From Gracilaria domingensis (taxonomy: Eukaryota > Rhodophyta > Florideophyceae > Gracilariales > Gracilariaceae), in assembly GCA_022539475.1 (NCBI GenBank), contig VCMS01000014.1, positions 248,001 to 312,000 of the forward strand: a stretch of 64,000 nucleotides of DNA. The letters are read 5' to 3'. The first letter of the stretch is position 1; every line of letters begins with the position of its first letter. Shown here one piece after another: positions 1,855 through 63,900 of this stretch. The notes below the pieces were generated by a model. That model had not been told where the DNA came from. It saw nothing but the letters and a program-made list of their open reading frames with translations, and made no database searches. A program made the position numbers and the translations under genes.

Positions 1855-3855
1855 CACAGGACTGTCATCAACGAATTCCGAAGTAGCCAAGCTCTTCGAG
1901 ACACCAATTCATCATGGCTGAAAGTTTCACTTGGCCTCTAAGCGGCACCGAGTTCAAACTCATCGATGGTGTTGTTATCGAATCTGTTGACAGGTACCGA
2001 TGGATAGTCATTGTCGGTGGTATCCTTGCGTTTGCTATGGCCTGGGGTATTGGTGCCAATGATGTCGCCAATGCCTTCGCTACCTCCGTGGGTGCCGGTT
2101 CCCTCGATCTCAAATGGGCTTGCGTTATTGCCGCTGTGATGGAATTCGCTGGCGCTGTTCTACTTGGTGGCTCTGTCACTGATACCGTCCGTAAGAAGAT
2201 CATTAAGGCTGATGTTTTCAACCCTCTGGAGGAAGATGGTGTTGCCAACGGTCCGGAGCTCCTCATGACCGGTTTCTTGGTCGCTCTCATCACTGCCACC
2301 ACGTGGTTGATTGTCGCCACCTACTTTTCCCTCCCGGTTTCCACCACTCACTCTATCATTGGCTCCCTCGTTGGTGTCGGTCTCGCCTTCCGTGGTGGTT
2401 CGGCTGTCGTATGGATCTCCAGTGGCTCTGGCTTCGGTAAGCTCAAGGGTCTCGTTGGCGTCATCCTCTCCTGGATCATCTCGCCGGTTCTTTCCGCCAT
2501 CTTAGCTATCGTCATGTTCCTGATTGTCCGTACTCTTGTGCTCCGCCGCAAGGAACCCCTCAAGGCCGGTTACTTGTTCATGCCGCTCTTCTATGGTATC
2601 ACAATCTCTGTCACCATCTTCTTCATTATCTTCAAGGGTGATAAGCGTTTCGGTATCAAGAAGAAGCTTTCTCTCGGTGCCGCCATCGGTATCGCTTTTG
2701 GAGCTGGAGCTCTCGTCGCTCTCATCTCCTTCTTTACCATCGTCCCACTAGCCAAGAAATACGTTGAGAGATGGGATGCTCGCCAGAAGGAGCTTGCCGA
2801 AAACCCTGAAGCTGCCGCCGCTGAGGCCGAGAAGAAGGCCAAGGTCGAAGGTGCCCTCAAGAAGGTCGGTATCAACCTCAACGTTGAAGAGGAGCTCGGC
2901 GACGATGTCATTCGTATGCATGACAATGTCGAGAAGTTCGATCCCAAGACTGAGCGTCTATTCACTTGGGTTCAGGTTTTCACTGCCGCCTTCGATGCCT
3001 TCGCCCATGGTGCCAATGATGTTGCTAACGCCATTGCTCCGTTCGCCTCCATCTACCAATTGTACAGGAACAATGGTGTCATCTCCAAGGTCAATAGCAA
3101 CGAGTTCGAGCAAGACGGTAAATTCGTTGGAGGTGGCGACCTTAACGGAACTGAATTCGCTGAAGAGGACAAGATTCCGGACTTTGAAGCTTTCTGTGGT
3201 GAGGATGGCGACGATAAGTACATCGCTTGCCAGGCTAGCTTCCCTTTCTTGGAAGGTGCCCCCTCTTCTGCCGGGTCCAAGACTTTCTCCAAGTATGACG
3301 AGGACGGCAAGTACATTACAGACGATGTTTGCTACACCGAATGTAACCCGGGTTCTGCGACCGCCTATAAGAACGACAAGCAGGAAGTACCAATCTGGAT
3401 TCTTGCTCTCGGTGGCGCTGGTATCGTTCTTGGTCTCGCCATGTGGGGTTATCGTATCATTGTTGCCATCGGTGTGAAGCTCACCAAGCTCACTCCGTCT
3501 CGTGGTTTCGCTATTGAGATTGGGGCTGCCATCACCGTCCTCATTGCTTCCAGCGTTGGTATACCAGTTTCCACCACTCACTGCCAGGTGGGAGCCACCA
3601 TGGGTGTCGGTTTGGTTGAGTTCAAGGCCTCCACCGTCAACTGGAAGCAGTTCTTCTTCATCTGCGTCGGATGGGTGTTTACTGTCGTCCTCACTGGTGC
3701 GATGGCCGCCGCCATCTACGCTGTCCTCATCTACACCCCGATGGCCTTCACCCGCGGTGACGGTCCCATCAACTACTGCCCAGGAAATAACCTGTTCCAA
3801 TTCAACTCTGACAAGCAAGCCTTCCAGGGTATTGCCTGCTCTGGCCTCGTCTAAA
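1855..3855 (+). repeat. Inverted repeat arm 1 (phosphate transporter copy 1)
   Basis: This 2,001-bp segment is repeated in reverse orientation at 8177-10177. Comparing the two copies shows two substitutions: A/G in codon 392 and C/T in codon 631. The match starts 59 bases before the ATG and stops one base after the stop codon; the flanks on both sides are unrelated or strongly diverged. Confidence 0.95.
1914..3854 (+). CDS. Sodium-dependent phosphate transporter, PiT/PHO89 family, copy 1
   Basis: The 646-residue membrane protein belongs to the PiT (SLC20/PHO89) family, which imports inorganic phosphate with Na+ or H+. Both halves carry the family signature: GANDVANAFAT at about 47-57 and GANDVANAIAP at about 366-376. 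The paired PVSTTH motifs at about 140 and 548 are the other conserved element. Hydrophobic segments fill residues 28-290 and 475-625; a long acidic hydrophilic loop with several cysteines separates them (about 295-475). The ATG at 1914 follows a TATA box at 1811 and gives the usual family N-terminus. There is no intron. It faces its twin at 8178-10118 tail to tail; the proteins differ only at residue 392 (Lys here, Glu there). High-affinity phosphate uptake at the plasma membrane is the likely role; an organellar membrane is not excluded. Confidence 0.95.
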   Translation: MAESFTWPLSGTEFKLIDGVVIESVDRYRWIVIVGGILAFAMAWGIGANDVANAFATSVGAGSLDLKWACVIAAVMEFAGAVLLGGSVTDTVRKKIIKADVFNPLEEDGVANGPELLMTGFLVALITATTWLIVATYFSLPVSTTHSIIGSLVGVGLAFRGGSAVVWISSGSGFGKLKGLVGVILSWIISPVLSAILAIVMFLIVRTLVLRRKEPLKAGYLFMPLFYGITISVTIFFIIFKGDKRFGIKKKLSLGAAIGIAFGAGALVALISFFTIVPLAKKYVERWDARQKELAENPEAAAAEAEKKAKVEGALKKVGINLNVEEELGDDVIRMHDNVEKFDPKTERLFTWVQVFTAAFDAFAHGANDVANAIAPFASIYQLYRNNGVISKVNSNEFEQDGKFVGGGDLNGTEFAEEDKIPDFEAFCGEDGDDKYIACQASFPFLEGAPSSAGSKTFSKYDEDGKYITDDVCYTECNPGSATAYKNDKQEVPIWILALGGAGIVLGLAMWGYRIIVAIGVKLTKLTPSRGFAIEIGAAITVLIASSVGIPVSTTHCQVGATMGVGLVEFKASTVNWKQFFFICVGWVFTVVLTGAMAAAIYAVLIYTPMAFTRGDGPINYCPGNNLFQFNSDKQAFQGIACSGLV

Positions 3856-8176: not shown

Positions 8177-10177
8177 TTTAGACGAGGCCAGAGCAGGCAA
8201 TACCCTGGAAGGCTTGCTTGTCAGAATTGAATTGGAACAGGTTATTTCCTGGGCAGTAGTTGATGGGACCGTCACCGCGGGTGAAGGCCATCGGGGTGTA
8301 GATGAGGACAGCGTAGATGGCGGCGGCCATCGCACCAGTGAGGACGACAGTAAACACCCATCCGACGCAGATGAAGAAGAACTGCTTCCAGTTGACGGTG
8401 GAGGCCTTGAACTCAACCAAACCGACACCCATGGTGGCTCCCACCTGGCAGTGAGTGGTGGAAACTGGTATACCAACGCTGGAAGCAATGAGGACGGTGA
8501 TGGCAGCCCCAATCTCAATAGCGAAACCACGAGACGGAGTGAGCTTGGTGAGCTTCACACCGATGGCAACAATGATACGATAACCCCACATGGCGAGACC
8601 AAGAACGATACCAGCGCCACCGAGAGCAAGAATCCAGATTGGTACTTCCTGCTTGTCGTTCTTATAGGCGGTCGCAGAACCCGGGTTACATTCGGTGTAG
8701 CAAACATCGTCTGTAATGTACTTGCCGTCCTCGTCATACTTGGAGAAAGTCTTGGACCCGGCAGAAGAGGGGGCACCTTCCAAGAAAGGGAAGCTAGCCT
8801 GGCAAGCGATGTACTTATCGTCGCCATCCTCACCACAGAAAGCTTCAAAGTCCGGAATCTTGTCCTCTTCAGCGAATTCAGTTCCGTTAAGGTCGCCACC
8901 TCCAACGAATTTACCGTCTTGCTCGAACTCGTTGCTATTGACCTCGGAGATGACACCATTGTTCCTGTACAATTGGTAGATGGAGGCGAACGGAGCAATG
9001 GCGTTAGCAACATCATTGGCACCATGGGCGAAGGCATCGAAGGCGGCAGTGAAAACCTGAACCCAAGTGAATAGACGCTCAGTCTTGGGATCGAACTTCT
9101 CGACATTGTCATGCATACGAATGACATCGTCGCCGAGCTCCTCTTCAACGTTGAGGTTGATACCGACCTTCTTGAGGGCACCTTCGACCTTGGCCTTCTT
9201 CTCGGCCTCAGCGGCGGCAGCTTCAGGGTTTTCGGCAAGCTCCTTCTGGCGAGCATCCCATCTCTCAACGTATTTCTTGGCTAGTGGGACGATGGTAAAG
9301 AAGGAGATGAGAGCGACGAGAGCTCCAGCTCCAAAAGCGATACCGATGGCGGCACCGAGAGAAAGCTTCTTCTTGATACCGAAACGCTTATCACCCTTGA
9401 AGATAATGAAGAAGATGGTGACAGAGATTGTGATACCATAGAAGAGCGGCATGAACAAGTAACCGGCCTTGAGGGGTTCCTTGCGGCGGAGCACAAGAGT
9501 ACGGACAATCAGGAACATGACGATAGCTAAGATGGCGGAAAGAACCGGCGAGATGATCCAGGAGAGGATGACGCCAACGAGACCCTTGAGCTTACCGAAG
9601 CCAGAGCCACTGGAGATCCATACGACAGCCGAACCACCACGGAAGGCGAGACCGACACCAACGAGGGAGCCAATGATAGAGTGAGTGGTGGAAACCGGGA
9701 GGGAAAAGTAGGTGGCGACAATCAACCACGTGGTGGCAGTGATGAGAGCGACCAAGAAACCGGTCATGAGGAGCTCCGGACCGTTGGCAACACCATCTTC
9801 CTCCAGAGGGTTGAAAACATCAGCCTTAATGATCTTCTTACGGACGGTATCAGTGACAGAGCCACCAAGTAGAACAGCGCCAGCGAATTCCATCACAGCG
9901 GCAATAACGCAAGCCCATTTGAGATCGAGGGAACCGGCACCCACGGAGGTAGCGAAGGCATTGGCGACATCATTGGCACCAATACCCCAGGCCATAGCAA
10001 ACGCAAGGATACCACCGACAATGACTATCCATCGGTACCTGTCAACAGATTCGATAACAACACCATCGATGAGTTTGAACTCGGTGCCGCTTAGAGGCCA
10101 AGTGAAACTTTCAGCCATGATGAATTGGTGTCTCGAAGAGCTTGGCTACTTCGGAATTCGTTGATGACAGTCCTGTG
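8177..10177 (-). repeat. Inverted repeat arm 2 (phosphate transporter copy 2)
   Basis: This is the reverse-complement counterpart of 1855-3855, with two substitutions in 2,001 bp. The arms are separated by 4,321 bp, so the locus could fold into a very long hairpin or exchange sequence by gene conversion. Confidence 0.95.
8178..10118 (-). CDS. Sodium-dependent phosphate transporter, PiT/PHO89 family, copy 2
   Basis: The 646-residue product is identical to the 1914-3854 product except Glu for Lys at residue 392, in the large hydrophilic loop. All PiT signatures (two GANDVANA motifs, two PVSTTH motifs) are intact, so both copies appear functional. The ATG at 10118 is preceded by its own TATA-like element at 10211-10220, while the DNA beyond 10178 does not resemble the promoter of copy 1. 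The two genes may therefore be regulated differently while encoding the same transporter. They converge and share the spacer downstream of both. Confidence 0.95.
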   Translation of the reverse strand: MAESFTWPLSGTEFKLIDGVVIESVDRYRWIVIVGGILAFAMAWGIGANDVANAFATSVGAGSLDLKWACVIAAVMEFAGAVLLGGSVTDTVRKKIIKADVFNPLEEDGVANGPELLMTGFLVALITATTWLIVATYFSLPVSTTHSIIGSLVGVGLAFRGGSAVVWISSGSGFGKLKGLVGVILSWIISPVLSAILAIVMFLIVRTLVLRRKEPLKAGYLFMPLFYGITISVTIFFIIFKGDKRFGIKKKLSLGAAIGIAFGAGALVALISFFTIVPLAKKYVERWDARQKELAENPEAAAAEAEKKAKVEGALKKVGINLNVEEELGDDVIRMHDNVEKFDPKTERLFTWVQVFTAAFDAFAHGANDVANAIAPFASIYQLYRNNGVISEVNSNEFEQDGKFVGGGDLNGTEFAEEDKIPDFEAFCGEDGDDKYIACQASFPFLEGAPSSAGSKTFSKYDEDGKYITDDVCYTECNPGSATAYKNDKQEVPIWILALGGAGIVLGLAMWGYRIIVAIGVKLTKLTPSRGFAIEIGAAITVLIASSVGIPVSTTHCQVGATMGVGLVEFKASTVNWKQFFFICVGWVFTVVLTGAMAAAIYAVLIYTPMAFTRGDGPINYCPGNNLFQFNSDKQAFQGIACSGLV

Positions 10178-34048: not shown

Positions 34049-34200
34049 TTAATGCGACGCAGCGTTCAACTTTTACGTCGTGATCGCTTCTGCACTGGGC
34101 TGCTGGTCTTGCTACTACTTTGACTACCATTAGTGCTACTTGTTACCTCGTCCGGAAGATTTTTGCGAACTGAGTCCTTGTAATGCCTTTTCTGGGCAAG

Positions 34201-34331
34201 AGCCGCCTGCTCTTCTTTCAGAGCCTCCTGTTCTCTCTTCAGATCCGCCTGCTCCTCTTTCAGAGCCTCCTGTTCTCTCTTCAGATCCGCCTGCTCCTCT
34301 TTCAGAGCCTTCTTTTCTCTCTTCCGAGCCG
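34201..34331 (-). repeat. 42-bp tandem repeat encoding a coiled coil
   Basis: About three copies of a 42-bp unit encode the 14-residue heptad pair KEEQADLKREQEAL near the C-terminus of the Uma2-like frame. Confidence 0.85.
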
Positions 34332-34393
34332 CCTGCTTCTCTTTCCGATCCTTCTCCCACTCCTTAGCTCTCTCATCAAAAGGAGCTGAGGGG

Positions 34394-34622
34394 TTGGGGT
34401 TTTGTAAATTGTTTGGAGTGTCAACTCCAAACAATCCCGTATCCACTGGTGTTTCCCCACGATATACTTCTCTCGAACCCCAGCTGTTCGTTGTAGGATT
34501 CCTGCGGTAAACTTCAACGCGTTTGTCTCTTTTGTCTTCATTCTTGCATTGGGAATCAGTGTTTATAACAACATACGTATTTACACCGGCTCTCTCATAC
34601 TTCGCAACCTTAACCACCGTGT
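34394..34622 (-). repeat. Inverted repeat arm 1 around the Uma2-like domain
   Basis: This 229-bp arm is the reverse complement of 35138-35373 with scattered substitutions and a 7-bp length difference. It contains the natural 3' half of the Uma2 domain (TVVKVAKYERAG to GVDTPNNL) and an internal 12-bp hairpin (34408-34435). Confidence 0.92.
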
Positions 34623-35137
34623 CCGTAGATTCGTTTTTGCTGGTAACCTCCACAACTGTGTCTACTCGCCCGGGAAGCGGGTGAGTGATCCTTTTCGATT
34701 TTGGAGAACGTTGCTCCCTTGTTTCCGGTGATACAGGCCTTCCGATGCCGACATCGGGCCTCCGTATCGTTCTTTTCGATGAAGGATTGCCAGAAGAAGA
34801 AGGCGAACGGAGAATAGCCAATCTCTCTTGGGAGCCTGCTAGATGCTTGTTCTCGCCTCTTAGATATAGTGCGTGGCCACGGTGGAGCACATGGCGAAGA
34901 GCACGATCGTGGGGCTCTTCTTCCATAGGTAGTGCTACGAGAATGCCTTCCACGTATTCGTATTTTCCAAACACCGAAGCGTCTATGTCCAAATAATCCT
35001 CAACCGAGCAAAGCGTGAGATATAGGGAGCCTATTTCGGTTGGTGGTGGTGCAGATGGGATGGCGTTAGGCAAGAAAGCGAGAGCAAAAGGCTGCTCAAC
35101 CGGTTCGAGTTCAAAATCATCGCCTTCACGCTCAGGC

Positions 35138-35373
35138 ACACGGTGGTTAAGGTTGCGGAGTATGAGAGAGCCGGTGTAAATACGTATGTTGTTATAAACA
35201 CTAATTCCAACTGCAAAAATGAAGACAAAAGAGACAAACGCGTTGAAGTTTACCGCAGGAATCCTAGAACGAACACTTTTCGGCAGGGGTTCGAAAGAAG
35301 TATATCGTGGTGAAACACCAGTGGATATGGGATTGTTTGGAGTTGACACTCCAAACAATTTACACAACCCCAA
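35138..35373 (+). repeat. Inverted repeat arm 2: partial reversed copy of the Uma2-like gene
   Basis: The plus strand encodes a second, partial copy of the same domain end (TVVKVAEYERAGVNTYVVIN near 35142-35205). A frame change separates this from the matching SKEVYRGETPVDMGLFGVDT. The mirror-image hairpin (35332-35359, loop TGAC versus GTCA) is retained. Because this copy is reversed, it supplies only meaningless antisense codons to the 5' end of the main frame. Confidence 0.9.
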
Positions 35374-36799: not shown

Positions 36800-37450
36800 A
36801 TGCAGCTTGTTCAGATGTTTCTCTTCACTGCGCTTCAATATCTACTTCCTCCAGCTTGTTCTGTCCCATCATCCTTCCAAACTTCTGCACAAAAAATTGT
36901 TCACCGGTCAGAAGGTCAGCTCAACTATGGTGCACGCCTGTCATCCACTTCACACACCAACGTTTCGTTTCTTCAACTTCCAACCATTAGAATAATACCA
37001 GAGTACGTGATTGTGACTTGCGTTCGGGACATGTGCTTCACAGGTGATGCGGTTCGCATGCTCTGTTCAAGGTCGCAACGACCAGTTTTTTCCTCCCCCG
37101 AAACCGCATTGTTGTTCATCACCGAAAGGGACGAGGAGAATCATCGAAAGATCTCGTTTAAAGCAGCAGTTCCAATAGCATCTGTCGAATCAGGATTTGT
37201 CGCATATATTCCATGGGTATCGATGTCGACAGAAAACGAGAGGGAGCCCACAGTTTGCTCCCCTGTGTGGGGAGTTTATCGCCGTTCTGCCGCGACGGGT
37301 ACGCGGCGATTTCTCTTTGGAGTTCCATTCGGTTCTTGCTGTCGTGCTTGTACGTTTGTATGGAGACTCAAAAAATATGCATATCCTCCTTCGCTTTCCT
37401 GCTGTCGCGTATGTCCAATGCTCTCTTCGTATCATCCATGGACGATCTAA
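36800..37450 (+). CDS. Secreted ten-cysteine protein, member A (unknown family)
   Basis: The ATG at 36800 gives 216 residues with an N-terminal signal peptide (MQLVQMFLFTALQYLLPPAC). The mature part shares a cysteine framework with the protein at 39963-40457: V-I-x-T-C-x4-C-F-x2-D-x5-C, then I-P-W, a single C, and a C-terminal block FGVPFGSCCRACTF ... PPSLSCCRVC (counterpart FGTCCGACPF ... PPRFSCCRAC). Ten cysteines align, which suggests five disulfides. This copy has about 15 extra residues before the FGxPFG block. I recognise no known family. A small extracellular or cell-wall protein is likely; defence, adhesion or signalling cannot be distinguished. Confidence 0.6.
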   Translation: MQLVQMFLFTALQYLLPPACSVPSSFQTSAQKIVHRSEGQLNYGARLSSTSHTNVSFLQLPTIRIIPEYVIVTCVRDMCFTGDAVRMLCSRSQRPVFSSPETALLFITERDEENHRKISFKAAVPIASVESGFVAYIPWVSMSTENEREPTVCSPVWGVYRRSAATGTRRFLFGVPFGSCCRACTFVWRLKKYAYPPSLSCCRVCPMLSSYHPWTI

Positions 37451-38913
37451 GAATGCTTTAAAACAGACTTTCTCGGACAAGGCTTGTACAGAGGTAATCG
37501 ATTCTAGTGGACTTCACATACCTTTCACGCTGTTATGAGTAAACTGGCGCTTATGACTCTGATCATCGTTGAAACCATCTGACCTGATCGTTGTCACCTT
37601 TGACAGATCCTGAATCATAATGATAAGGGAAAAAAGGCTTCATCATCATCAACCAAATCACTTGCCCAAGTCAGAGCTGATGTCACACACTTGACCATTC
37701 AGGAATGGAGGAATTTCCTTTGCTGTGGAAGCACAATTCTTTTTCGCAGCACAGCTTTAGGGTGTCTTCATGATGTGCACCGATAAATACCGTCGTACAG
37801 CAAGCGATAAGCAGATGCAGAGTAACCTTCTACCTTTGGAAGCTACCTCTGGCTAGAACACGGCTTGCGTTTTCCGAACAAGTTCAGCTTTTCGTGTATA
37901 AACTGTGATACGGCTTTCCAACGGGTGCTATTTATGTGACAGTATGACTTTGCAGTAGGAGATTGCAGCCGTCATGTCATGCAAGTGTGGAAATGATCCG
38001 TAAGACTGCGCTTGACTCGAAGAAGCCTACTAGTTTTAGAGATATGTCACCCGAGAACGGAAGCAAAACCATTTTCTTCTCTCTTCGTGGAGCGGCACGA
38101 ATATTTTCCTTCATGTATCATTTACGAATGTAACTGTAACCTTAGGCTGTGCGTTTCATTATGGTGGCTAAAAAGGATCAATTTCGACCGTGAAACGTTG
38201 GTTCATCCAGATGTGCAGAAGAACGAGTATCATATTCGTTCTTCATCATGATGATGATAGCTTTCTATGGCCACATGACCACGATCAGCAAATACAGTTT
38301 GTTTGGAGAAAATCCTATAACACCTCGTATCATGCATGCAGCTGTATCTGCCAACTACAATTGCTGGTAAGAGAAGGGTTCGTTCTTCTCTGAGAAACGA
38401 CAACAATTTCTATTGTATAACCTGCGTGTATCTGTTGAACATTATTTGTAAAGATGTTCAATGCGAACAAATTCAGGACATCCCAGCCTGCCACCTCAGC
38501 GAGCGTCAAATCTGGTTATTACTGATATCATATCCACGTCGCCCAACAAGGTGTTGGCCTTCTGTATGTGAGCATTTGTTTAAGAAACGCTCTGCACATT
38601 ACAATATCCAACTAAGCTCTTGTGTCTGAAAAGCAAGAGAGAGATACGTGTAGATCGAAAGAAGCCATAGTCATGAAGTGCCGGCGCATCGGAAGTTCTT
38701 CTAGTGATTAGCTCCGTTTACCGTTGCTACCACTGCGGTCTGTGAGAGAGGTGGGACTGACACTCAAACAAACGGAGGTGAGGATGCTTCCCTCAGCCCG
38801 AAGTGTGCAGGATTTGACCCTACGCCGTAGGATAGAACGAACGAATTGCGTTACCAACACCAGGACCTACACAGAAGAAAGAGCTCTGTGAGGCAGCCGC
38901 ATCCTTTAAGACC

Positions 38914-38980
38914 AAATTCGGCCTACCCAGGCTCTCCCATTCTGAATCAGAATCGGTTAGCCCTGCCGTAGGCCGAATTT
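38914..38980. repeat. Imperfect 67-bp hairpin
   Basis: The outer arms 38914-38926 and 38968-38980 (AAATTCGGCCTAC) are exact reverse complements. The interior is partly self-complementary around ATTCTGA-ATCAGAAT. Confidence 0.85.
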
Positions 38981-39590
38981 CTGATGGAGATATTTTCGCG
39001 AATACAGGATAGTTATTGGAGGATAGTAAACTATTTACTGTATATTACGTAGAAAGGTATAGCTAGTAGGGCCCATGCTAACAATCCGAAGTCCTATCGC
39101 GTCAGCAGCAATGATTCTGTAGCATTGACCCACGGAAGTATCCTGAATACCTTCTAAGTGGAAATTGGGGTGGCAAGGTTCACCTTCACACCTACACGGA
39201 GGATACAACGCTAGAGGTCGAAGAGATGGCTCGTCTCTTCGTCGCAAAGTGATCACCACTACGTAGCGCATGTCGACACCTGCCAACGAGATAGCCTTGA
39301 CTCGAGGTTTCCTTTTGGTAAGAAGCTCAGGTCTCTCTTCGTGTTCGCCTTCTCAAGAGAAACTGAAGCGTAAGTAGACTTTTGCCTTACACGAGCTCTA
39401 TACGGTGTAGCTTCAGGTTTTTCTGTCGCACGCCGCGTTCTGCGTTGCTGCTTGTAATATACGAAGTATCCTTATACTGTATGTACCGTCGTAATCGCTT
39501 CTCGGAATGCTTCATTTATGACACTAAACTCAAACTTTGTCAAAGTACCACGCTGGCCAAATCCATCAAAACATGGCATTGCATACCCTT

Positions 39591-39635
39591 GCTGTCACAC
39601 AGTCCTCCTGCTAAGCAGGAGGACTGTGGGACAGC
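39591..39635. repeat. 22-bp hairpin, one mismatch, 1-base centre
   Basis: Arms 39591-39612 and 39614-39635 are reverse complements with one mismatch, around a single A. Confidence 0.95.
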
Positions 39636-39962
39636 ATCCCAGTCCATAACTTGCCCTGAGGGATCTGGTTTTTGTGTAGCATTTGAAACATCTAAACGCA
39701 ACAATTCGTGTTCCATGTGAACGCATGTTCATACAGCTCGACACCGTACTGTATGACGTGTTTTTGCCCTCGCTAGCATTGCCGACGAAGTAGTTTCCTT
39801 TTAACTCGGACATCAGGCGCTTTCGCCCTTCTCAATCGATGGCGGCGTACTAAAGATCGATGCGCGGCAACTGAACCTTCCATTCCGTCAACTCCCCGTC
39901 GGCCTTCCGCATCCATCGCCAGCAACCTGGACTTCATCTGCCTCAATCGTTCTCGTGTCGCC

Positions 39963-40457
39963 ATGAGCAAGCTTTCCGCGATAGCCGTCACAATCTTGGC
40001 GTTTCATCTGTCCATATTGGCAGTCAATTCCGTTCCAACCAAAGCCCGACAGCTGCAACAAATGCTCCCTTTAGAAGCACAGAGCTTGATTCCCGAATCC
40101 ACCCCGGAACCGTCACAAGTTATCCTAACTTGCAATCAGGCAGCGTGTTTCTCCTCCGATGAGCTAACTTTTTCGTGCGACATAAATGGCCCACGAAACG
40201 ATCGGAGGTTGATACTACTCCTAGCAGAAGAGCAACCAGATGCTTTCGGTTTGGTGGTCACGTTAAGAGCTAATGTTAACAGACGACTTGCAGATTTAGG
40301 AATCTTGCCCTTCATCCCGTGGAGAGAACCTCGTCGACAGATAACTTGCGCGCAGATAGGCTTTTTGGGACGGCCGTTTGGAACTTGTTGCGGAGCTTGC
40401 CCATTCGCACGACGAAGACAAAATCCGCCGCGTTTCTCGTGTTGCAGGGCTTGCTGA
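39963..40457 (+). CDS. Secreted ten-cysteine protein, member B (unknown family)
   Basis: The ATG at 39963 gives 164 residues with a clear signal peptide (MSKLSAIAVTILAFHLSILA, cleavage near NSVPT). The mature protein aligns with member A at 36800-37450: VILTCNQAACFSSDELTFSC, then FIPW, ITC, and FLGRPFGTCCGACPF ... PPRFSCCRAC at the very C-terminus. Sequence outside the cysteine framework differs strongly, as expected for fast-evolving secreted proteins. The end of the protein is the cysteine block itself. Function unknown. Confidence 0.68.
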   Translation: MSKLSAIAVTILAFHLSILAVNSVPTKARQLQQMLPLEAQSLIPESTPEPSQVILTCNQAACFSSDELTFSCDINGPRNDRRLILLLAEEQPDAFGLVVTLRANVNRRLADLGILPFIPWREPRRQITCAQIGFLGRPFGTCCGACPFARRRQNPPRFSCCRAC

Positions 40458-49783: not shown

Positions 49784-50074
49784 ATGGCGCGCGCTCATTC
49801 GCGTTCACCCTCCACAATCCGGCAAACATTTTGTACAGCCGCCCGTTTCCCGCTCACCTTCGCCGCCGCGCATTCCCTCGCCGCGCATTCCCGCGCCGTC
49901 GTCGTTCCCCCGGCAGCACTGCCGCGCGATCTTCCTACCTTCGGCGACGCGCCGCGCCCGCCGCGCGCCCTCAAGCTCTGCACGATGCGAAGCGACGCGC
50001 CCGCCACACAGCGCGACCGCACGTCGTTCTCCACGTCGCGCGCGTCCACCAGCCCCGCCACCACCGCCGCCGCC

Positions 50075-50107
<33 letters not shown>

Positions 50108-50500
50108 ACCGCCGGCGCCGCGCGCCGCGCCACGCAGCGCCACGCGCTGCAGCGCGCGTCCACGACGCTCCCCCTCACGACGCTCCCCCTGCCGGCCGTG
50201 GCCGGCGGCGCCACCGCCGCGAGCGGCGTGAAGCCCATGTCGCCGTCTCCGACCAGCGTGTGCTCCCCGCCGGCGTCTCAGTTCGGCCGCATCCGCGCGA
50301 AACAACGCACCTCCGAGCAGTTCCGCGCGGTGGCCAGCGCGCCCGTGTTCGTGGCGGACGAGGAGCTGCTGCACATTCTGCGCGCGCATAACCCGAGCAC
50401 GGAATTTGTGAAGATGAACGCGGTGACGATGCGGCGACACTGCGAGCCACGGGGGGAGGAGAGCGGCGTGGGCGACGAGGAGGCCATGAGCTTTGTTTAA
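49784..50500 (+). CDS. Hypothetical Ala/Thr-rich protein
   Basis: An ATG at 49784 opens 238 residues; an internal ATG at about 49985 would give a shorter form. The N-terminal two thirds are Arg/Ala/Thr/Pro low complexity from very GC-rich DNA. The last 65 residues look ordered: ASQFGRIRAKQRTSEQFRAV then APVFVADEELLHILRAHNPS. That balanced C-terminus suggests a real gene, but no family is recognised. It is convergent with the AIG2-like gene. Confidence 0.45.
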
Positions 50501-50612
50501 TGGAGACACGCAGCAAGGCTGCAAGCTGGGAACAGACAGCGAGGTGCAAACGGAGTGCACACGTAGTGAGTTTACATAATATGGGCACAGAACGCGAATT
50601 GTACACTGCGAA

Positions 50613-51320
50613 TCATTGGTTGGATTCACACACGAGCGAGCGCATATGACGCGGCACATAAAGTCGACATTGGTAGTCATCCAAGTACTTGTTCTTCGCC
50701 AGCTCGGTCAAGTTGTTCTGCTTAAGGTACACAAACGCCTGCATCGAGAAGGAGCGATCAGCGCAGCAGGAGACGCTGGTGACGCTTCTCGAGTAATTGA
50801 CGCCCACGTTCTCCAGGTCATCCAGATCCGACAGCACGGCGTCGTCCACCATATACAGCTCGCCCTTTACGCGGGAGCCTTTGCACGGCATGTCCAACAG
50901 ATAGGGCGAATTGTACTTGCCGCCAACCACCAGCGGGTAGCGCGTCTGCGTGCGAAAGTCGCCGACGTACGTGGCGCGCTCCATCAAGTAGCTGTTGGCG
51001 AAGCCGCGTTTGAGCGTGCCGTACACGAAGACGTAGTGGCGACGCGCGGCCAGCGGCTTGCGGTGCGGCGGCGACAGCGGCGTGGGGTGTCGGTGCGGCC
51101 TGCGCGTCTTGGGGTAGGAAAACGTGAGCGGCATGGCGGCAGGCGCCGAAGCGGGCGCGCTGGCTGCACCGCCTGCTGGCGCGCGCTGCTTCCTCTTGGC
51201 GGGCGCGACGGGCGGAACGGCGACGGGCGGCGACGGCGGCGCGGCAGAAGACGCGGTAGACGCCATGACAGCGGCACGCGGCGCAAGCGCAGGCGCAGCA
51301 AAGGCGGCACCAGCCGGCAT
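50613..51320 (-). CDS. AIG2-like / gamma-glutamylcyclotransferase-fold protein (GGACT type)
   Basis: The product has 235 residues from the ATG at 51320. The N-terminal 90 or so are Ala/Pro/Arg-rich, resembling a plastid transit peptide. The cyclotransferase-like domain follows: VFVYGTLKRGFANSYLM (phosphate-loop-like YGTL motif), TRYPLVVGGKYNSPYLLD, VKGELYMVDDAVLSDLDDLE and NYSRSVTSV, matching GGACT/AIG2 proteins, in which the Glu of the DxLE segment is the likely general base. GGACT releases 5-oxoproline from gamma-glutamyl-lysine cross-link products; the exact substrate here is not known. Confidence 0.8.
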   Translation of the reverse strand: MPAGAAFAAPALAPRAAVMASTASSAAPPSPPVAVPPVAPAKRKQRAPAGGAASAPASAPAAMPLTFSYPKTRRPHRHPTPLSPPHRKPLAARRHYVFVYGTLKRGFANSYLMERATYVGDFRTQTRYPLVVGGKYNSPYLLDMPCKGSRVKGELYMVDDAVLSDLDDLENVGVNYSRSVTSVSCCADRSFSMQAFVYLKQNNLTELAKNKYLDDYQCRLYVPRHMRSLVCESNQ

Positions 51321-52827
51321 GAGGCGCGCAGGCGGAGCACAACCAGCGCAGCCACCCCACAGCGCGAACCGGCGGCGCGAGCGCGGGCGCGCGCAGCGGT
51401 CCGCGGCGGCATAAATGGGGGCGCGGGAAGCAGCCGGCCGCGGCGCCGACAGCAGCAACGCGGCGCACCTGCAATGGCGGCCGCGCGCTCACGCGGTGGC
51501 GCGGCGCGCTTGCAGGAGCGGCGCGCCGCGCGCCAGCGGCGGCGGAACGCGCGGCGCGCGCGCGCCGTTGATTTGGGCGCGGGGGCGGCGCGCGCGCTGC
51601 GCGCGCCGCGCGTGTGGCTGGCGCCACGCGCGCCGCGGCGGTTGACGTGTCCCGCGGACAGCGCCCCCGCGCGCCGATGCGGCCGCGGCCGCGCGCGTCT
51701 CCGGCCTCCCCGCGCCGCGGCGCGCGCCAGCTGCACAGCCGCACACGCCGGCCGCGTGTGCGCGCTGCACACGCGGCCGGCGTGGCCGCGGCGGCGGCGG
51801 CCGCGGCCGCGAACGCGGCGCGCGCGCGGCCGCGCGGCACCGGTTTGCAGATCCGTCGGCGTTCCGCGCGGCGGTAGGTTTCGCAAGGCGCTGGGGGCGC
51901 GCGCGACGAGACGTCCGCGGCGTGCAAGTGATGACTCGTCCGTCGCGCGCGGGCGCGCGCGAAGAAAAAGGCACGCGCGGGAGGCGCGCGTGCGCCGCGC
52001 GCCGCGACCCGCCGTGCACGCCGGGCGCGCGCGCGCGCGCGCCTTTTAGCGCTCCGTCGCGCGCGCGCGGTGGCGGCGGCGCGCGGTGTGGAAAACGAGG
52101 CGGGCGTGCGGCTCGCGACGGTGCTTTTTGCACGTGCGTTGCAACTCGTCGCCGCCCATGACACGGTTGGAAGCGCCACCGCGCGCCGGCCACATTGCGC
52201 CGCAATGGACGGGTAAGCGGGCAGACGGCGTCGGCTGGCGGCCGCGCGCAGGCGGGTCGCGCGCGGCTCTTGCGTCACCATGACGCCGCGTGCGGGGGGC
52301 GGCGCGCCGCGAAGCGCGCGCGCGGTGACGGCAGTTGGATATGCGCGCGTCCAAACAAATGAATATTAAAGTTACCTTCTTCATGACGGCGCGCATTACG
52401 CACGCGCGCCCAAAAAACGCACACGGCAAGAAAAAGACGTGGCGGCGCGTGCGCGCGGCGCGTCGCGCGGAGATACAAGGCAGATACGGCGCGCAGAAAA
52501 ACGCCCACGCCAGCCACAAAGGCGCGCCGCGCAACGCGCCGCAGCAAGCGGCGCGCTGATTGGCGCCAATGGAGGCGCCGCGCGCTTGCGCCAAGCGCGC
52601 AATCTCGTACCACATAAATTCCACCCACCCGCCGCGCCCAATCCGCGCCCGCAGCGCGCGCTGGCGCTCGCCCAAGAAAATCGGCACAAAAATCGGCGCC
52701 AAAAAGAAAAATACACAAACGTTTCATTACAAAAGCAACAATGAGCAGTCCCCGCAAAAAGAAAGACAGCACGTCAACTGCCAAAAAAAAAAAAAAAAAA
52801 AAAAAGGAAAATGCAAAACCTCGCACG
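51321..52827. other. Extremely GC-rich intergenic block
   Basis: About 1.4 kb is dominated by GCGC/CGCG words, including an alternating CG run near 52026-52043, so every frame stays open by composition alone. I call no gene. It ends in a 23-base A run (52783-52805) just beyond the PTC7 stop codon. Confidence 0.7.
52783..52805 (+). repeat. A23 homopolymer
   Basis: Twenty-three consecutive A on the plus strand, 23 bp past the stop of the minus-strand PTC7 gene. Confidence 0.95.
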
Positions 52828-54228
52828 TCATTCCTTTCCGTTCTTCGTCTTCTTCGCCGAGGCGCCCACGGCCGAAGGATCCACCACCAGCGCCGAGATG
52901 ATGGTGATGTCGTCCACCTTGCCTCCCATAAACACATGCCCAGCGTTTCTCGCGTTCACCGCAAATGGCGACGACGACCGTTCGTTGTTGGCAATCTTCA
53001 CCGCCACCTCGCCCAGCTTGTCCGCAATCATCTCCGCGCCCTGCCTGCCACTGCTCGCCAGTCCGCCGCAATCACTCACAACGCTCGATTCGTCCGACGA
53101 CGAGCTGTCGCTCTTATTCACGCGCTCTGCCTCCTTTCCGTCCGCCTCGAGCTGCTCTTGTTGTCGCCGCTGCCGCTCGTGTTGCACCACCACCTCCACA
53201 ATGTTCTCCGCAAACACGTTGTCCCACAGCCCATCCGTGCCCATGATAATCCAATCGCCGTGGCGCAGCGGCACCTCAATCGAGTTGGCCACGTCCACCG
53301 TATCCAGCGAATCGGTGCCAATCTGATACGGGCAGTTGAAATAATGCTGCTGCTCCACCGTCTTATAAATCACACATCCGTCGCGAATCACAATCAACCC
53401 CGAATCACCCAAGTTAACACCATACAACTTATGTTCATGAATCCCCACCACACACGCCGTACTCGACCCAATAGCCTGATTCGTGGCGGCCGCCTGTTTG
53501 AGCGCTTCCTTCACGGAGCATGTACCCTGTTTGCAAATGTGATCTGCTGTCAGTTGTGCCAGTTGTTTCGAATAAAGTCCCGCGTCGACGCCGATACTGG
53601 CCCAACCGCCCACGCCGTCAAACACGCCCAGCGCGTTCGACTGCACAAAGAATGCATCCTCGCCACCCTTTTCGGCCTTGTCCGGGTGTGGGATGCTCAC
53701 AACCGCCGACCGAAGCAGCAGCGAAGGCGACTTGACATAATTTGTTTGCGTGTGTTGTAAAGAGTCGTCTGTTGTGACGCTACTACTCGACAACGCAACC
53801 GTCTCGCCCGAAGACGAGGAGGACGAACAAGTGGAGGAGGAGGAACAGCGCGTGGATGGTTGATACTCCATGCGGCAGTCATCCGTGGCAGAGGGGCTTG
53901 TAGCAACCAGCGCCGAAGCCACGGCGGTGGCGGCTATGGCGCCGCCCACGCCATTCGCCAAGGCAGCGCGAGAAGGTCGCCGAGGCGCGTCTGGCGACGA
54001 GGGCGGCGAGGACGGTGGCGCGGTAGAGGTGGCCGTGCAAAGCATGCAGGAGTGAGACCTTTTGAACGACAAGCCCGATAAGGGGGGCTGCACGAACGTT
54101 GAGGAGGGATGTCGTCGACGACGCGGAACGTGTGACGGGAGCGCACTGAGAGAGCTTTGCGAGAGAAGAGCCGAGGAGAAGGCTGGCGGAAATGATCGTA
54201 CGAGAGTGCACGTACGGCAGGCGTTCAT
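52828..54228 (-). CDS. PTC7-type PP2C protein phosphatase, organelle-targeted
   Basis: The product (466 residues from the ATG at 54228) has all PTC7/PPTC7 signatures: GEDAFF (about 189), GVFDGVGGW (201-209, metal-binding Asp), ACVVGIHEHKLYGVNLGDSG (to about 277), GTDGLWDN (330-337) and C-terminal KVDDIT (metal-binding Asp). A Ser/Arg-rich presequence precedes a poly-Ser stretch. Relatives act in mitochondria (yeast Ptc7 on Coq7) or plastids (photosystem II core phosphatase PBCP). A Ser/Asp-rich insertion lies between the last two blocks. The frame is open far upstream only because of C-rich DNA. It is divergent from the phosphohexomutase gene. Confidence 0.88.
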   Translation of the reverse strand: MNACRTCTLVRSFPPAFSSALLSQSSLSALPSHVPRRRRHPSSTFVQPPLSGLSFKRSHSCMLCTATSTAPPSSPPSSPDAPRRPSRAALANGVGGAIAATAVASALVATSPSATDDCRMEYQPSTRCSSSSTCSSSSSSGETVALSSSSVTTDDSLQHTQTNYVKSPSLLLRSAVVSIPHPDKAEKGGEDAFFVQSNALGVFDGVGGWASIGVDAGLYSKQLAQLTADHICKQGTCSVKEALKQAAATNQAIGSSTACVVGIHEHKLYGVNLGDSGLIVIRDGCVIYKTVEQQHYFNCPYQIGTDSLDTVDVANSIEVPLRHGDWIIMGTDGLWDNVFAENIVEVVVQHERQRRQQEQLEADGKEAERVNKSDSSSSDESSVVSDCGGLASSGRQGAEMIADKLGEVAVKIANNERSSSPFAVNARNAGHVFMGGKVDDITIISALVVDPSAVGASAKKTKNGKE

Positions 54229-54919
54229 GACCGACGGGGGGGACGGCTTTTTGGAGAGACGTTGGGTCCAACTGCTGGGGGCAGATGCGAGGGAACGGGG
54301 AGCGGGGCGGCGCGTACTCGGGGAGCAAGAGGCGAAAGAAGGCAAGGGTTTTGGGGGGTGGGGTGGGGGGGGGTGGAGGGGGGGTTGGAGGGGGGGGGTT
54401 TGTGCGGGAGGGGGGTGGCGGTGGAAGTAGAGCCGAAAGTACCAAGGGGGACGGACAGGCGGCGGTCGGGTAGGTGGTGGCACTTTTGCTTAAGGAAGAA
54501 AAAAAGGCAAAAAGTTGGAGGCGTGCGCGCAGCCGCGCGCATTCGTGTTGTTCCGTGCGGGTGTCGCGACGCACAAAAGCAACAAACACATGACGCCGCC
54601 GCGCAACCACCGCGGCGCGCGCCGCGCGCGCGCCGCACGCGCGCCGCATGATTGGCCGCGCGCGCCGCACGAGCGCCATTGCGCGCGCGCGTCTTTGACG
54701 CTGGCGGCTGGCGGCGCCGCGCGCGAGCGCGCTGTAATGGCGCTGCACCGGTGACGCTGCTGGCGCGCCGCGCGTGCGCCGCGCGTGCGCCGCGCGTGCG
54801 CGCGCGCCGCGAATCTCGCGCCGAGCGCGCGCGCGCGCGCCGGAGATATGCGCCGGCGGTGCGGCGGCGCCGCACCGCCGGCGGCGCTGCGCGGCGGGGC
54901 GGGGCTGCGCGCGCGCGTG
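54229..54919. other. GC-rich divergent promoter region with G-quadruplex potential
   Basis: It contains a run of at least six G-tracts (54353-54418) and a CG-alternating block (about 54770-54845). No gene. Confidence 0.6.
54353..54418 (+). promoter_or_regulatory. G-quadruplex-prone G tracts
   Basis: The plus strand has G tracts of 6, 4, 9, 7, 9 and 6 separated by short gaps, about 125-190 bp upstream of the PTC7 start. Quadruplex formation is inferred from sequence only. Confidence 0.6.
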
Positions 54920-56641
54920 ATGGCGGCGAGCGCGTTTGTGTCGACCGCGGCGCTGCCGCCGCGCGGCGCGCTTTCGCGCCGTTCGGGCGCGCGCTCCGCG
55001 CGGTGGCGATGCGCGCCGCGCCGATGCGCGCCGCGCCGCGCGCGCATGTCCGCGCCGACGCCGCCGTCGCCGGCGCCGGCGCCGCCGTCGTCGCCATCGG
55101 CGGCGCTGCTGCACCTGCAAAACGGCTCGGACGTGCGCGGCGTGGCGGCCGCATTGCACCCGGAGCAGCCGGTCACGCTGACGGAGGCCGCTGTCAGCGA
55201 GATAGTCGCCGCGTTTGTGCGCGCCGTCGCGGACAAGCTGCGCGTACGGCCCGCGGACGTGCGCGTTGCGCTGGGACGCGATTCGCGCATTACGGGCGAG
55301 CGCTTGCTGCGCGCGGCGGCGAGCGGCGCCGCTTCGGAGCGTGCTGCCGTGTTTGACTTTGGGCTGTGCACGACGCCGGCCATGTTCATGAGCACCGTTC
55401 TGGAAGGCTATCAGTACGAATGTGCGTGTATGCTCACGGCGAGTCATTTACCTCCGAATCGAAATGGCATCAAGTTCTTCACACGTGAGGGCAGCGCCGA
55501 TAAGAACGCCGTCCGCGCCATGTTAGTGAGCGCTTCGCACGCTAGCACCGCACGAGCTCGCCATATCGATACCATTCCCAACGCCGTAAAGCAGAGCTTC
55601 TTGCCAGTCTACGCTCACCATCTGGCAGATTTGATTCGCACGCGATGCAATCATCCCACTCATTATCACACACCGCTGGAGGGCTTCAAGATTGTGGTGG
55701 ATGCTGGAAATGGCGCTGCTGGATTCTTCGCCCAAATTCTTACCAGTCTCGGAGCCGATACCATTGGCCAGTTCCTTGAGCCGGATGGAATGTTTCCGAA
55801 TCACGTTCCAAACCCGGAGGACAAGAAGGCCATGCAGATGACCGTCGACGCCACGAAGAGAGAAAACGCCCATCTCGGCGTGATTTTCGATACTGATGTC
55901 GATAGATCAGGCTTTGTGGCTTCCAATGGCGTTGCGATAAATCGCAACAAGCTCATTGCGCTTCTGGCTCGTATTGTTCTTCGAGAGCATCCGGCGTCTA
56001 CGATTGTCACAGACAGCGTCACGTCAAACGGCCTCAAACGCTTTATTGAGTCGCTGGGTGGAAAACATTTCAGGTATCGAAAAGGCTACAAAAACGTGAT
56101 TGATAAAGGTATCGAACTCAATCGCAATGGTGTACAGACTGAATTGGCCATTGAGACGTCCGGTCATGGTGCGATGCGCGAGAATTATATGTTAGATGAT
56201 GGCGCATATCTGGCTGTCAAAATTATTGTGGAGATGGTGCGTATGAGATTGTCTGGAGATGAACGTGGTATTGGCGGCTTGCTTGACGGTCTGGATGAAC
56301 CTCTGGAGGAGAAGGAATTCCGACTACCGTTTTTGGATCAGGGCGAATATCAAGCCTACGGTGCTAACGTTGTTGAGGCGTTTGCCGACTTTGCGCAGAA
56401 TGTGGATGGCTGGACCCTTGAAGATACAAACTATGAGGGCTATCGGGTGAGCGTGGACGAGGGGGATGGAAAGGCGGGCTGGTTGCTACTGCGACAAAGT
56501 CTTCATGACCCCCTTCTCCCTCTCAACGTCGAGTCCGAAACTTCTGGCGGTGTTGCCGCAATTGTCAATGTGCTCGTCAACGATTTCTTTCCGAATTACA
56601 CTAATGTGGATACCAGTCCGCTCAAAGCCTATGTCCAGTGA
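54920..56641 (+). CDS. Phosphoglucomutase/phosphomannomutase family protein, plastid type
   Basis: From the ATG at 54920 (573 residues; 54848 is an alternative) the N-terminus MAASAFVSTAALPPRGALSR resembles a chloroplast transit peptide. The alpha-D-phosphohexomutase core follows: active-site serine loop TASHLPPNRNG (Ser near 175), metal loop DTDVDRS (near 324, in place of DGDxDR) and sugar-binding loop ETSGHGA (near 412, in place of GEMSGH). DTDVDRS and ETSGHGA are typical of the plant plastid branch rather than classical PGM. It interconverts hexose 1- and 6-phosphates, so it could feed nucleotide-sugar synthesis. GC content falls sharply from about 55.4 kb, within the gene. Confidence 0.87.
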   Translation: MAASAFVSTAALPPRGALSRRSGARSARWRCAPRRCAPRRARMSAPTPPSPAPAPPSSPSAALLHLQNGSDVRGVAAALHPEQPVTLTEAAVSEIVAAFVRAVADKLRVRPADVRVALGRDSRITGERLLRAAASGAASERAAVFDFGLCTTPAMFMSTVLEGYQYECACMLTASHLPPNRNGIKFFTREGSADKNAVRAMLVSASHASTARARHIDTIPNAVKQSFLPVYAHHLADLIRTRCNHPTHYHTPLEGFKIVVDAGNGAAGFFAQILTSLGADTIGQFLEPDGMFPNHVPNPEDKKAMQMTVDATKRENAHLGVIFDTDVDRSGFVASNGVAINRNKLIALLARIVLREHPASTIVTDSVTSNGLKRFIESLGGKHFRYRKGYKNVIDKGIELNRNGVQTELAIETSGHGAMRENYMLDDGAYLAVKIIVEMVRMRLSGDERGIGGLLDGLDEPLEEKEFRLPFLDQGEYQAYGANVVEAFADFAQNVDGWTLEDTNYEGYRVSVDEGDGKAGWLLLRQSLHDPLLPLNVESETSGGVAAIVNVLVNDFFPNYTNVDTSPLKAYVQ

Positions 56642-60939: not shown

Positions 60940-63900
60940 TCACTTTCTGTTGCGCCTCCATCGATTGCGCCTCCACTGATTGCGTCTCCACCAGTTCCGC
61001 CTCCACCACCACTTGCGTCTCCACGTTTGCTTTCGTGCGTTCACAACTGATGCAGATGGTGTCTTTGAACTTGAAACAGTCGGGATAGGGCTTGAAGATG
61101 CGGAAAGCACAGCTGACAAACTCGGTGACGCAGACAGAGTCGGAATGGGAGATGAACTTGGTGATACTGAAGCCATCGGAGTGGGGCTGACGGACGTGGA
61201 CGGTACGACAGATGAACTCGGTGATGCAGATGGCGTCGGACTAATAGATGCGCTCGGTGTCTCTGAAACAGTCGGAATCGGGCTCGCTGATGCTGATGGT
61301 GCGACAGACGAACTCTGTGATGCAGATGGCGTCGGACTGATAGATGCGCTCGGTGTCTCTGAAGCAGTCGGAGAGGGGCTCGCGTATGCCAATGGTGCAA
61401 CAGACGAACTTAGTGACGCAGATGGGGTCGGAATAGGAGATGCAGAAACAGAGGGTATAACTGACGGAGAGCTGCTTGGTGCCGAACGATGCGTCACAGA
61501 ATTCGATCGAGAAGAACCCTGTGAGTTGCTATCCAATTCGCTCATCTGTCGTACCCCGTGCGTTTCTGCATCAACGCCATAGTAGAACTCTTCATCATTG
61601 AACACGACCTTGAGCAACTCACAAGAAGTCTGTTCCATCGAAAACTGCTCTGGAGCGCCCAAGTGAGGATAGAATGCCATCCAGATCAATTCTTCTTCAT
61701 CGTGGTCGCTTCGCACCACAAGTCGACTGTGTCGCTTATCGCTCTTGAATGTTTCTGTCCTGTAGGACACTGATCGCCCCCGTGTCAAAACGTGAACATC
61801 AACCTGAGCAATTCCGTCATCCACCAACACCATCCGGCACCGATTCTCCTCGCAACTCGATGATTCGCTCTCCACCTCCACGTTGTCCCCGAGCGCTAGG
61901 TACGACTCAAACTTGTCCTTCGAGCGGGAGCCCGACACTCTTGCGGAGTCAACAACCATAAAGAAGCCCGGTCCGCTTCCTGCGCGGTTAAGAACCACAG
62001 ACCGCACCATCCACGACAGTGGTATTTCCCGGTAGTCCCTTCTCCAAGTCCACATCCCCCGGAACCCTACCTCATCGTCTCCATGCATGTTAAACCCGTC
62101 CCGCGTGAATCCCAGGTCCGCGCCGTCATCGTCGGCTGGCCACCCAAAGTCGCGTGGATGCCCGTACACCGCAGTGTCGAACACTTTCCGTTCCTGATTC
62201 GCAGTGCCGTCATCATCGTACACTGTCACAAGTGCCGTCGGCGCCTTATCGTGCGGCCAGTTTGGTGCCCATTGCACGTTGTACGCATAAGTCAAGTCCG
62301 CCACTGCGATGACGTGCGTACCAGTATCCTCCGTGCGAACCATGCGAACTGACGGCGCCTTGGCGTCCTGCGCGAGACCGTTCACGTGGAGGAGAGAATG
62401 CTTCCTGGAGTCGATGTTATAATTCCAGCGGTAGTCATCGATCCAAGCCGTCTTGAAGGCTGTGAGAGTGAAAATGCCGCGGTCTGCATTATCGTGTCCG
62501 GGAAACATGGCGTCAGGGCGCGCATCGAAGTGCACATACAGTGCGTCCTCCGCCTGGCTGCTTCGCGCAATCAGCAATCCTCGACGAGGGCTGAAGTACG
62601 AGAGGGGAAAGTGCTTTGCAAACTCTTCCTCCAGACCCTGCGGCGACTCTGCGTATGTCGAAGTTCCGTGCTCCATTCCGAGCACCGTCACATGCATTAT
62701 GTTCTGGCCCCACTGGATCCGGCACGGGTTGTTATTCTTGAAGCTCTTGCCCATCCTCTGCTTCCAAACCATTTGCGGCAGCGCCCCATCGGGATAAGCG
62801 TACTTGAATAGTGCTGCCCAGGCGGGGTACGAGATCCCACCCCCAGACGAATGGCCCACAATTCGAGCACATTGCCATGGCTCCATCATTTGGGCTGCGT
62901 TGTGGATCAACCCGCGGAATCTGTCTGTATTCATCACTTGCAGTCCTCGACGTTCGGCCGCAACCAGCGCAAGAGATCCTTCGCGAAGCGCGATAAAGTA
63001 TGTATATGCGTCTTCAAATGTAGCTCCATCCGGGTACACCGCATGCGTCATGTACGCCCGAATCATTGCGGAAAACCGCGTATCAAGACCGACATTGAAC
63101 CCATCATCGCCGCTTGACGATAGCACAGCGGATGAGTATACATCATACTCGGTTTCTCCTTCAAGGACGAGGTTTGTGATGTAAAGATGTCCATGATAAA
63201 GGGCCCAATTGCTGAAGATGCGATGAGGATGTTGGACAGCGTTCGGAGAGCTGCGTGAGCTCTCAAGTGCCGTTCCCCATGAGGTCTGCTTGTACATGAG
63301 CATTGCCAGCGCGCTCAGAACGAATGTCTTTTCCTCATCGGCAAATCGGTCGTACATGACATCCAACGCAAGCGCTAGCGAAGCTCCTGCTGAGTACCAG
63401 TCGTTTTGAACCTGGAACCATCTTCTTTCGTCCCACAAGAATGCGCGAGATCCAGTTCGTTCTGTTGGACACTTACCGGCACAATTCACGGCGCGATGGG
63501 CGAGTAGCACTTTGGCCCATGCGACAGACGCCTTCACACAGTCGTCCACGCTGGTTGTCATGAACGACGCGGCACTGCCACGCTCTTTCACTACCTTCTC
63601 ATTCACGCTACTCCATACTGCACACATGAAGAAGCTTTGGCAGTAACGTTCAGTCATGTTCATGATGTGACTCGCCAATGGTTCGAGTTCATCCAACTCC
63701 TTGCGAGAAGCGGATGACAAATCCTGCTTCCCACTGTACACGGCAGTCTCACCATCGCGTTCCATTTGTGCCAGTCTCTGTAGAAGGGGATTCGATTCAG
63801 CGAGGTGCAACGAAGTTCGACGAGAAAAATGGGACCAAGAAGTCTTCAGGTCGAACGTGTCTTCGTTCGAATAGCGTTCTAAGAGCTGCTGCCATCCGCT

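Follow-up and report, generated by a model that had tools for sequence, protein, structure and literature searches.

We analysed a window of 64,000 nucleotides from the red alga Gracilaria domingensis (GenBank assembly GCA_022539475.1, contig VCMS01000014.1; C14:248001-312000 in a genome of 77.9 Mb over 680 contigs, of which C680 bears phycobilisome genes). Two neighbouring plus-strand genes in this window, gene A (P0001) and gene B (P0002), both belong, as judged from their sequences, to a large family of putatively secreted, cysteine-rich proteins and diverge strongly from each other. At least 37 uninterrupted frames for the same ten-cysteine domain, A and B included, were found on 23 contigs of this genome. 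As far as was searched, the cysteine framework and a family of such size built on it are new; the kind, a lineage-specific secreted cysteine-rich family, is known.

A preliminary description had proposed two linked plus-strand frames with signal-peptide-like starts and a common ten-cysteine framework, and both frames were recovered (Table 1). The motifs that it quoted (TC-x4-CF, IPW, PFGxCCxACxF and PPxxSCCRxC) are present in both A and B. Its statement that the two proteins share little else caught their strong divergence and slightly overstated it: BLASTP aligns A and B over 143 amino acids (aa) with 31% identity (E 9e-15), and the two are thus homologous. Speaking of two linked members, as a pair, also understated the family, which has at least 37 members and in which A and B are not sisters (see below).

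The set of 37 was built stepwise (27 members, then five, one and four more). It is a lower bound, because later searches with divergent members kept yielding new ones; degenerate, short and broken matches were excluded. With E values of up to 10 allowed, gene B had 40 matches in the genome and gene A had 32, a number of which were partial, weak or unrelated. The reversed domain of gene B gave none at the same threshold, an empty answer that by itself shows little. Inspection by eye showed the weak matches at C67, C20, C294 and C428 to be unrelated frames, which were left out, and a match at C143 (E 9.6, gene A query) was dropped without reading. A DNA pattern for C-C-x-A-C matched 828 times and its reversed form 475 times, which made it too unspecific for use.

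Framework and protein layout

In all 37 members the cysteines follow the pattern C-x4-7-C-x8-11-C-x52-74-C-x10-53-CC-x2-C-x8-16-CC-x2-C near the C-terminus, a pattern derived from the same 37 members that it describes. All ten cysteine columns are cysteine in each of the 33 domains that were aligned. Other frequent residues in these 33 domains are a tryptophan (30), a threonine preceding the first cysteine (29) and the residues of a GxPFG motif (G 32, P 27, F 30 and G 31); G-x-PFG-x-CC is the most conserved loop of the domain. No histidine is conserved at 50% or more.

The domain spans 116-163 aa in the 32 members measured. Between it and the signal-peptide-like start there is usually a variable spacer, often rich in proline, serine or acidic residues, which in the same 32 members ranges from 0 to 103 aa and is 16% proline and 13% serine overall. 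It is near absent (0-7 aa) in C360_70k, C248_25k and C17_81k. After the tenth cysteine the proteins continue for 0-22 residues (median 4), and nine of the 37 end at that cysteine. Gene B has exactly ten cysteines, the tenth being its final residue; gene A closes with an 11-residue tail and has an 11th cysteine within its signal peptide. By eye, the residues after the framework hold no hydrophobic C-terminus of the kind expected of a glycosylphosphatidylinositol (GPI) anchor or membrane tail; we therefore rejected an anchor of either kind and expect the proteins, once secreted, to be soluble. We also rejected the idea of a peptide precursor, in which an acidic pro-region would precede a basic mature part: the net charges of spacer and domain are not generally opposed, and no common dibasic site ahead of the domain was seen by eye.

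An in-frame methionine with a hydrophobic start was found in 35 members (31 by hydropathy and four by eye). All 31 of the 31 methionine-starting members measured have such a start, whereas among the window's other ATG frames (100 aa or longer) four of 76 do. The contrast is inflated, because most of the family methionines were picked by hydrophobicity. The signal-peptide-like starts of A and B were likewise judged by hydropathy. In gene A the hydrophobic core averages 2.07 across 10 residues, the lowest value among the 31 members. At C258:60600-61500 (L087), a signal-peptide-like start lies in a different frame from the ten-cysteine domain, either a broken start or a short intron.

Cysteines were counted from nine residues ahead of the first framework cysteine to the protein end. 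On this count 21 of 33 members have exactly ten, eight have 11, one has 12 and three have 13; the count for C360_70k includes two cysteines of its signal peptide. Seven loci (L033, L034, L036, L082, L083, L088 and L089) are related members with an extra cysteine just ahead of the third framework cysteine (C-x2-C). The five of this set that were counted have 11 domain cysteines each, which suggests a free or an intermolecular thiol.

Growth, decay and selection

Tandem and block duplications have enlarged the family, and decay has affected some of its copies. Nine neighbouring pairs lie less than 10 kb apart, where 0.13 are expected (33 points placed at random 20,000 times gave three at most), and on C258 five members fall within ~8 kb. 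The pairs C160/C403 and C17/C248 are block duplicates (loci L082/L083 and L034/L036), 95-97% identical over ~3 kb on different contigs, with a second member 2 kb away on each of C17 and C248. These blocks are recent duplications or possibly alternative haplotypes in the assembly. Between C74_89k and C74_131k, BLASTN similarity spans the coding frame and ends within ~10 bases of it.

Some 14 places look broken or partial. About eight of these (C39:41k, C39:219k, C238, C187:192k, C79, C151:75-86k, C323:46k and C541) look like decayed or incomplete members; of these, C39:41k, C79 and C323:46k were read as sequence and the other five judged from match tables. The other six are short 3'-end copies (C21, C83, C151:29k, C39:262k, C545 and C430; L025, L026, L027, L031, L032 and L035), 77-79% like the family member on C50 and carried by a dispersed repeat. 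Copies of this repeat are 80-92% alike, with shared stretches of up to 1.4 kb; those on C39 and C545 agree at 99.97% along 3 kb, so that a single locus may be represented twice.

We compared rates of replacement (Ka) and silent (Ks) change in 14 paralogue pairs. For the domain, Ks was usable in 11 pairs, the others being saturated or without silent change, and in these 11 the Ka/Ks of 0.14-0.43 shows the domain to be under purifying selection. The region ahead of the domain gave 0.23-0.87 in 10 usable pairs and is mostly the more variable part, with the highest value in C74_152k/C96_80k; for whole proteins the ratio reaches up to 0.53 among the 22 pairs shown. The third codon position is the most changed in 13 of the 14 pairs. 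Pairwise ratios are below 1 wherever they could be computed, and we rejected positive selection as the driver of divergence. The preliminary description had called the proteins fast-evolving, which here does not amount to positive selection.

In the phylogeny that IQ-TREE built from 33 domains (129 columns; nine of 30 inner branches starred), gene A falls in a six-member clade with C156_78k, C22_178k and C258_53k, C258_55k and C258_57k (ultrafast bootstrap 89, Shimodaira-Hasegawa-like approximate likelihood ratio test 90; branch not starred). Gene B lies elsewhere, weakly placed, and the tree thus gives no support to the idea that A and B form a special, conserved pair. The five-gene array on C258 combines two clades.

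Relatives, known systems and possible roles

Consistent with the earlier remark that the pattern belongs to no known family, no credible match was found in Pfam, NCBIfam or the Protein Data Bank (PDB). Neither A nor B matched Pfam-A, with E values of up to 10 allowed; when 27 members were searched one by one (E up to 1), four unrelated Pfam families were matched, by one member each (best E 0.006). NCBIfam gave two unrelated families (best E 0.018). In the PDB, gene B alone and a 27-member profile that includes gene A each found one match at the level of noise (E 1.1 and 1.5, respectively). GTDB genomes and IMG/VR contigs were scanned with one pattern each, with confirmation by the gene B sequence, and gave 51 and 66 pattern matches, respectively, and no relative by tblastn; these collections are not algal, and the result says little beyond the absence of a near bacterial or viral relative. 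In the open-access literature, no paper with this framework was found by title or start of abstract among the top-ranked papers.

The closest parallels are general ones. Plant nodule-specific cysteine-rich (NCR) peptides, pollen-coat proteins and fungal small secreted cysteine-rich proteins resemble the family in their signal peptide, kept cysteine framework, divergence, clustering and birth-and-death evolution. The present family differs from these in being red algal and in having a framework of its own, on a domain larger than most such peptides. The von Willebrand factor C (VWC) domain also has ten cysteines and a terminal CCxxC; it has an early CxxCxC and one CCxxC, in contrast to the two CC-x2-C blocks here, and its Pfam profile was matched neither by A or B (E up to 10) nor by the 27 members (E up to 1). 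Non-specific lipid transfer proteins generally have eight cysteines on helices with CC and CXC motifs, unlike the ten cysteines and two CC-x2-C blocks of this family, which has no Pfam match. They are likewise a secreted, cysteine-rich multigene family (PMC9832785). Rhodobindin, a gamete-binding lectin of Aglaothamnion callophyllidicola, is likewise a red algal protein, and its authors report that it lacks sequence homology to any known protein (PMC4413206). It differs in being a 50.7 kDa protein of two domains with four tandem ML[H/Y]DG... repeats each; the protein has no motif in common with the family, the main text of that paper does not use the word cysteine, and the ML[H/Y]DG[S/A]D repeat motif is absent from A and B by eye.

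Tentatively, we favour the reading that these proteins are soluble extracellular binding modules locked by disulfides, most likely for biotic interaction. The hydrophobic N-terminal start would direct the protein into the secretory path; the ten cysteines would, to judge from the architecture, pair as five disulfides that lock the domain; and the spacer could act as a flexible, perhaps glycosylated stalk. The domain may then bind a glycan or protein ligand outside the cell, with targets that differ between members. The most likely use would lie in dealings with other organisms, as defence against bacteria, epiphytes or parasites or in recognising them, because the repertoire is large and diverged, its duplication and decay are ongoing and the domain is constrained. 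That dozens of such modules on one new disulfide scaffold together make up a red-algal recognition or defence repertoire outside the cell, still duplicating and decaying, is a bolder and more doubtful proposal.

Several observations weigh against this reading. The databases searched hold no homologue of known function. AlphaFold2 gave a mean predicted local distance difference test score of only 38 (two window sequences; gene A domain alone), and for this reason both the disulfides and the fold are assumed. Among the 12 members with 11-13 cysteines the number is odd in 11, which five disulfides do not explain, and C258_57k and C258_61k have no in-frame methionine start. An arms race would predict more than what is seen, namely purifying selection and no sign of positive selection, although pairwise Ka/Ks is blind to single selected sites. 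In the very young pair C248_25k/C17_81k there are two replacement differences and no silent ones, which give no ratio and are too few to weigh. Lastly, C74_152k/C96_80k, C84/C39 and the block duplicates share flanking DNA outside the frame; the frame-limited similarity of the C74_89k/C74_131k pair is thus that of one pair and not general.

A role in the cell wall, where intermolecular disulfides and a glycosylated proline/serine spacer would cross-link or organise the agar/cellulose matrix, seems unlikely. The spacer composition would suit it, and the 11 of 33 members whose cysteines are odd in number could have one thiol free for bonds between molecules. However, a spacer that ranges down to zero and is near absent in three members is unlike the backbone of a wall glycoprotein, 21 of the 33 members have exactly ten domain cysteines, and bulk structure would not obviously require so many diverged copies. 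We consider it distinctly unlikely that the family mediates contact between spermatia and female cells with A and B as linked partners. In other groups, mating recognition typically involves secreted cysteine-rich proteins that are linked and diverged. Red algal lectins with gamete-binding roles have also been tabulated (PMC11766507). Against this, A and B are two of at least 37 members on 23 contigs and are not sisters in the tree, and rhodobindin is a two-domain repeat protein whose paper does not mention cysteine in its main text (PMC4413206). The main text of a paper on the Gracilaria UV sex chromosomes (PMC12502185) contains none of the terms cysteine, signal peptide, extracellular or lectin, which is weak evidence.

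It is improbable that the CxxC...CxxC cysteines of the two CC-x2-C blocks hold a metal outside the cell instead of forming disulfides. The two CxxC pairs lie 9-17 residues apart, like zinc-ribbon knuckles, and the blocks are invariant in 37 of 37 members, but the remaining four cysteines are equally invariant, no histidine is conserved to the level given above, and the 27 members have no metallothionein or zinc-ribbon match in Pfam; moreover, proteins of the secretory pathway with ten conserved cysteines normally oxidise. We give just as little credence to secreted inhibitors of proteases or glycosidases, directed at bacteria and grazers, in which a disulfide scaffold would present a reactive loop. 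Many paralogues on a disulfide-type scaffold would fit such inhibitors, and the loop between the fourth and fifth cysteines (10-53 residues) could be a variable business end; yet conservation is highest in the loop G-x-PFG-x-CC, which is no variable reactive site, and no inhibitor family is among the Pfam matches. Finally, the six repeat-borne 3' fragments and the ~8 other broken or partial places might suggest chance frames or mobile-element debris rather than genes. This is highly improbable given 37 domain frames that run uninterrupted and all keep the ten cysteines, the low Ka/Ks of the domain in the 11 usable pairs, the C74_89k/C74_131k similarity that ends at the coding frame and the empty reversed-query control. 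Chance frames and a two-gene curiosity were both rejected on the strength of the family itself, the reversed control and Ka/Ks.

Secreted cysteine-rich families of many copies often serve plants, fungi and animals as tools against microbes, for mates or in walls. Almost none are known from red algae, a lineage in which few protein players of innate immunity are known. If the bolder proposal of a recognition or defence repertoire is true, the family would be among the first of this kind proposed for the red algal lineage. For structural biology, it offers a scaffold to which the PDB holds no credible relative by sequence. Its 37 or more genes, defined by a precise cysteine pattern, also form a concrete test set for expression upon wounding, infection, elicitation with agar oligosaccharides and reproduction. 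Direct evidence of a response to agar oligosaccharides exists for Gracilaria conferta (PMC8307928).

Features of the window

Table 1. Genes A and B and their parts (window coordinates; cysteine numbers are those of the protein)
Feature	Position	Strand	Description
Gene A (P0001)	ATG 36800 to stop ending 37450	+	216 aa, one uninterrupted frame; 10 domain cysteines
Gene A, signal-peptide-like N-terminus	36800..36868	+	~23 aa; by hydropathy
Gene A, spacer from signal peptide to domain	36869..36994	+	~42 aa
Gene A, ten-cysteine domain	36995..37414	+	C74, 79, 89, 153, 180, 181, 184, 201, 202, 205
Gene B (P0002)	ATG 39963 to stop ending 40457	+	164 aa, one uninterrupted frame
Gene B, signal-peptide-like N-terminus	39963..40031	+	~23 aa; by hydropathy
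Gene B, spacer	40032..40106	+	~25 aa
Gene B, ten-cysteine domain	40107..40454	+	C57, 62, 72, 129, 142, 143, 146, 160, 161, 164

Elsewhere in the window, two nearly identical PHO4 phosphate transporter genes, each encoding 646 aa, lie in opposite orientation (1914-3854, plus strand, and 8178-10118, minus strand). By eye they differ in one amino acid, a recent inverted duplication ~4.3 kb apart. The minus-strand frame at 34066-34926 has a Uma2 domain (Pfam E 6e-12). This domain is usually bacterial, and here the frame overlaps long inverted arms (34394-35373; 138 nt at 96% and 91 nt at 95%) that look mobile-element-like. A block at 50000-56000 has 61-72% G+C, compared with 38-56% in most of the window, holds many overlapping long frames and extends into a phosphoglucomutase/phosphomannomutase gene. 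At 60940-63765 on the minus strand, a 941-aa frame without a Pfam match ends in a long C-terminal repeat rich in serine, proline and alanine, stalk-like as in extracellular proteins.

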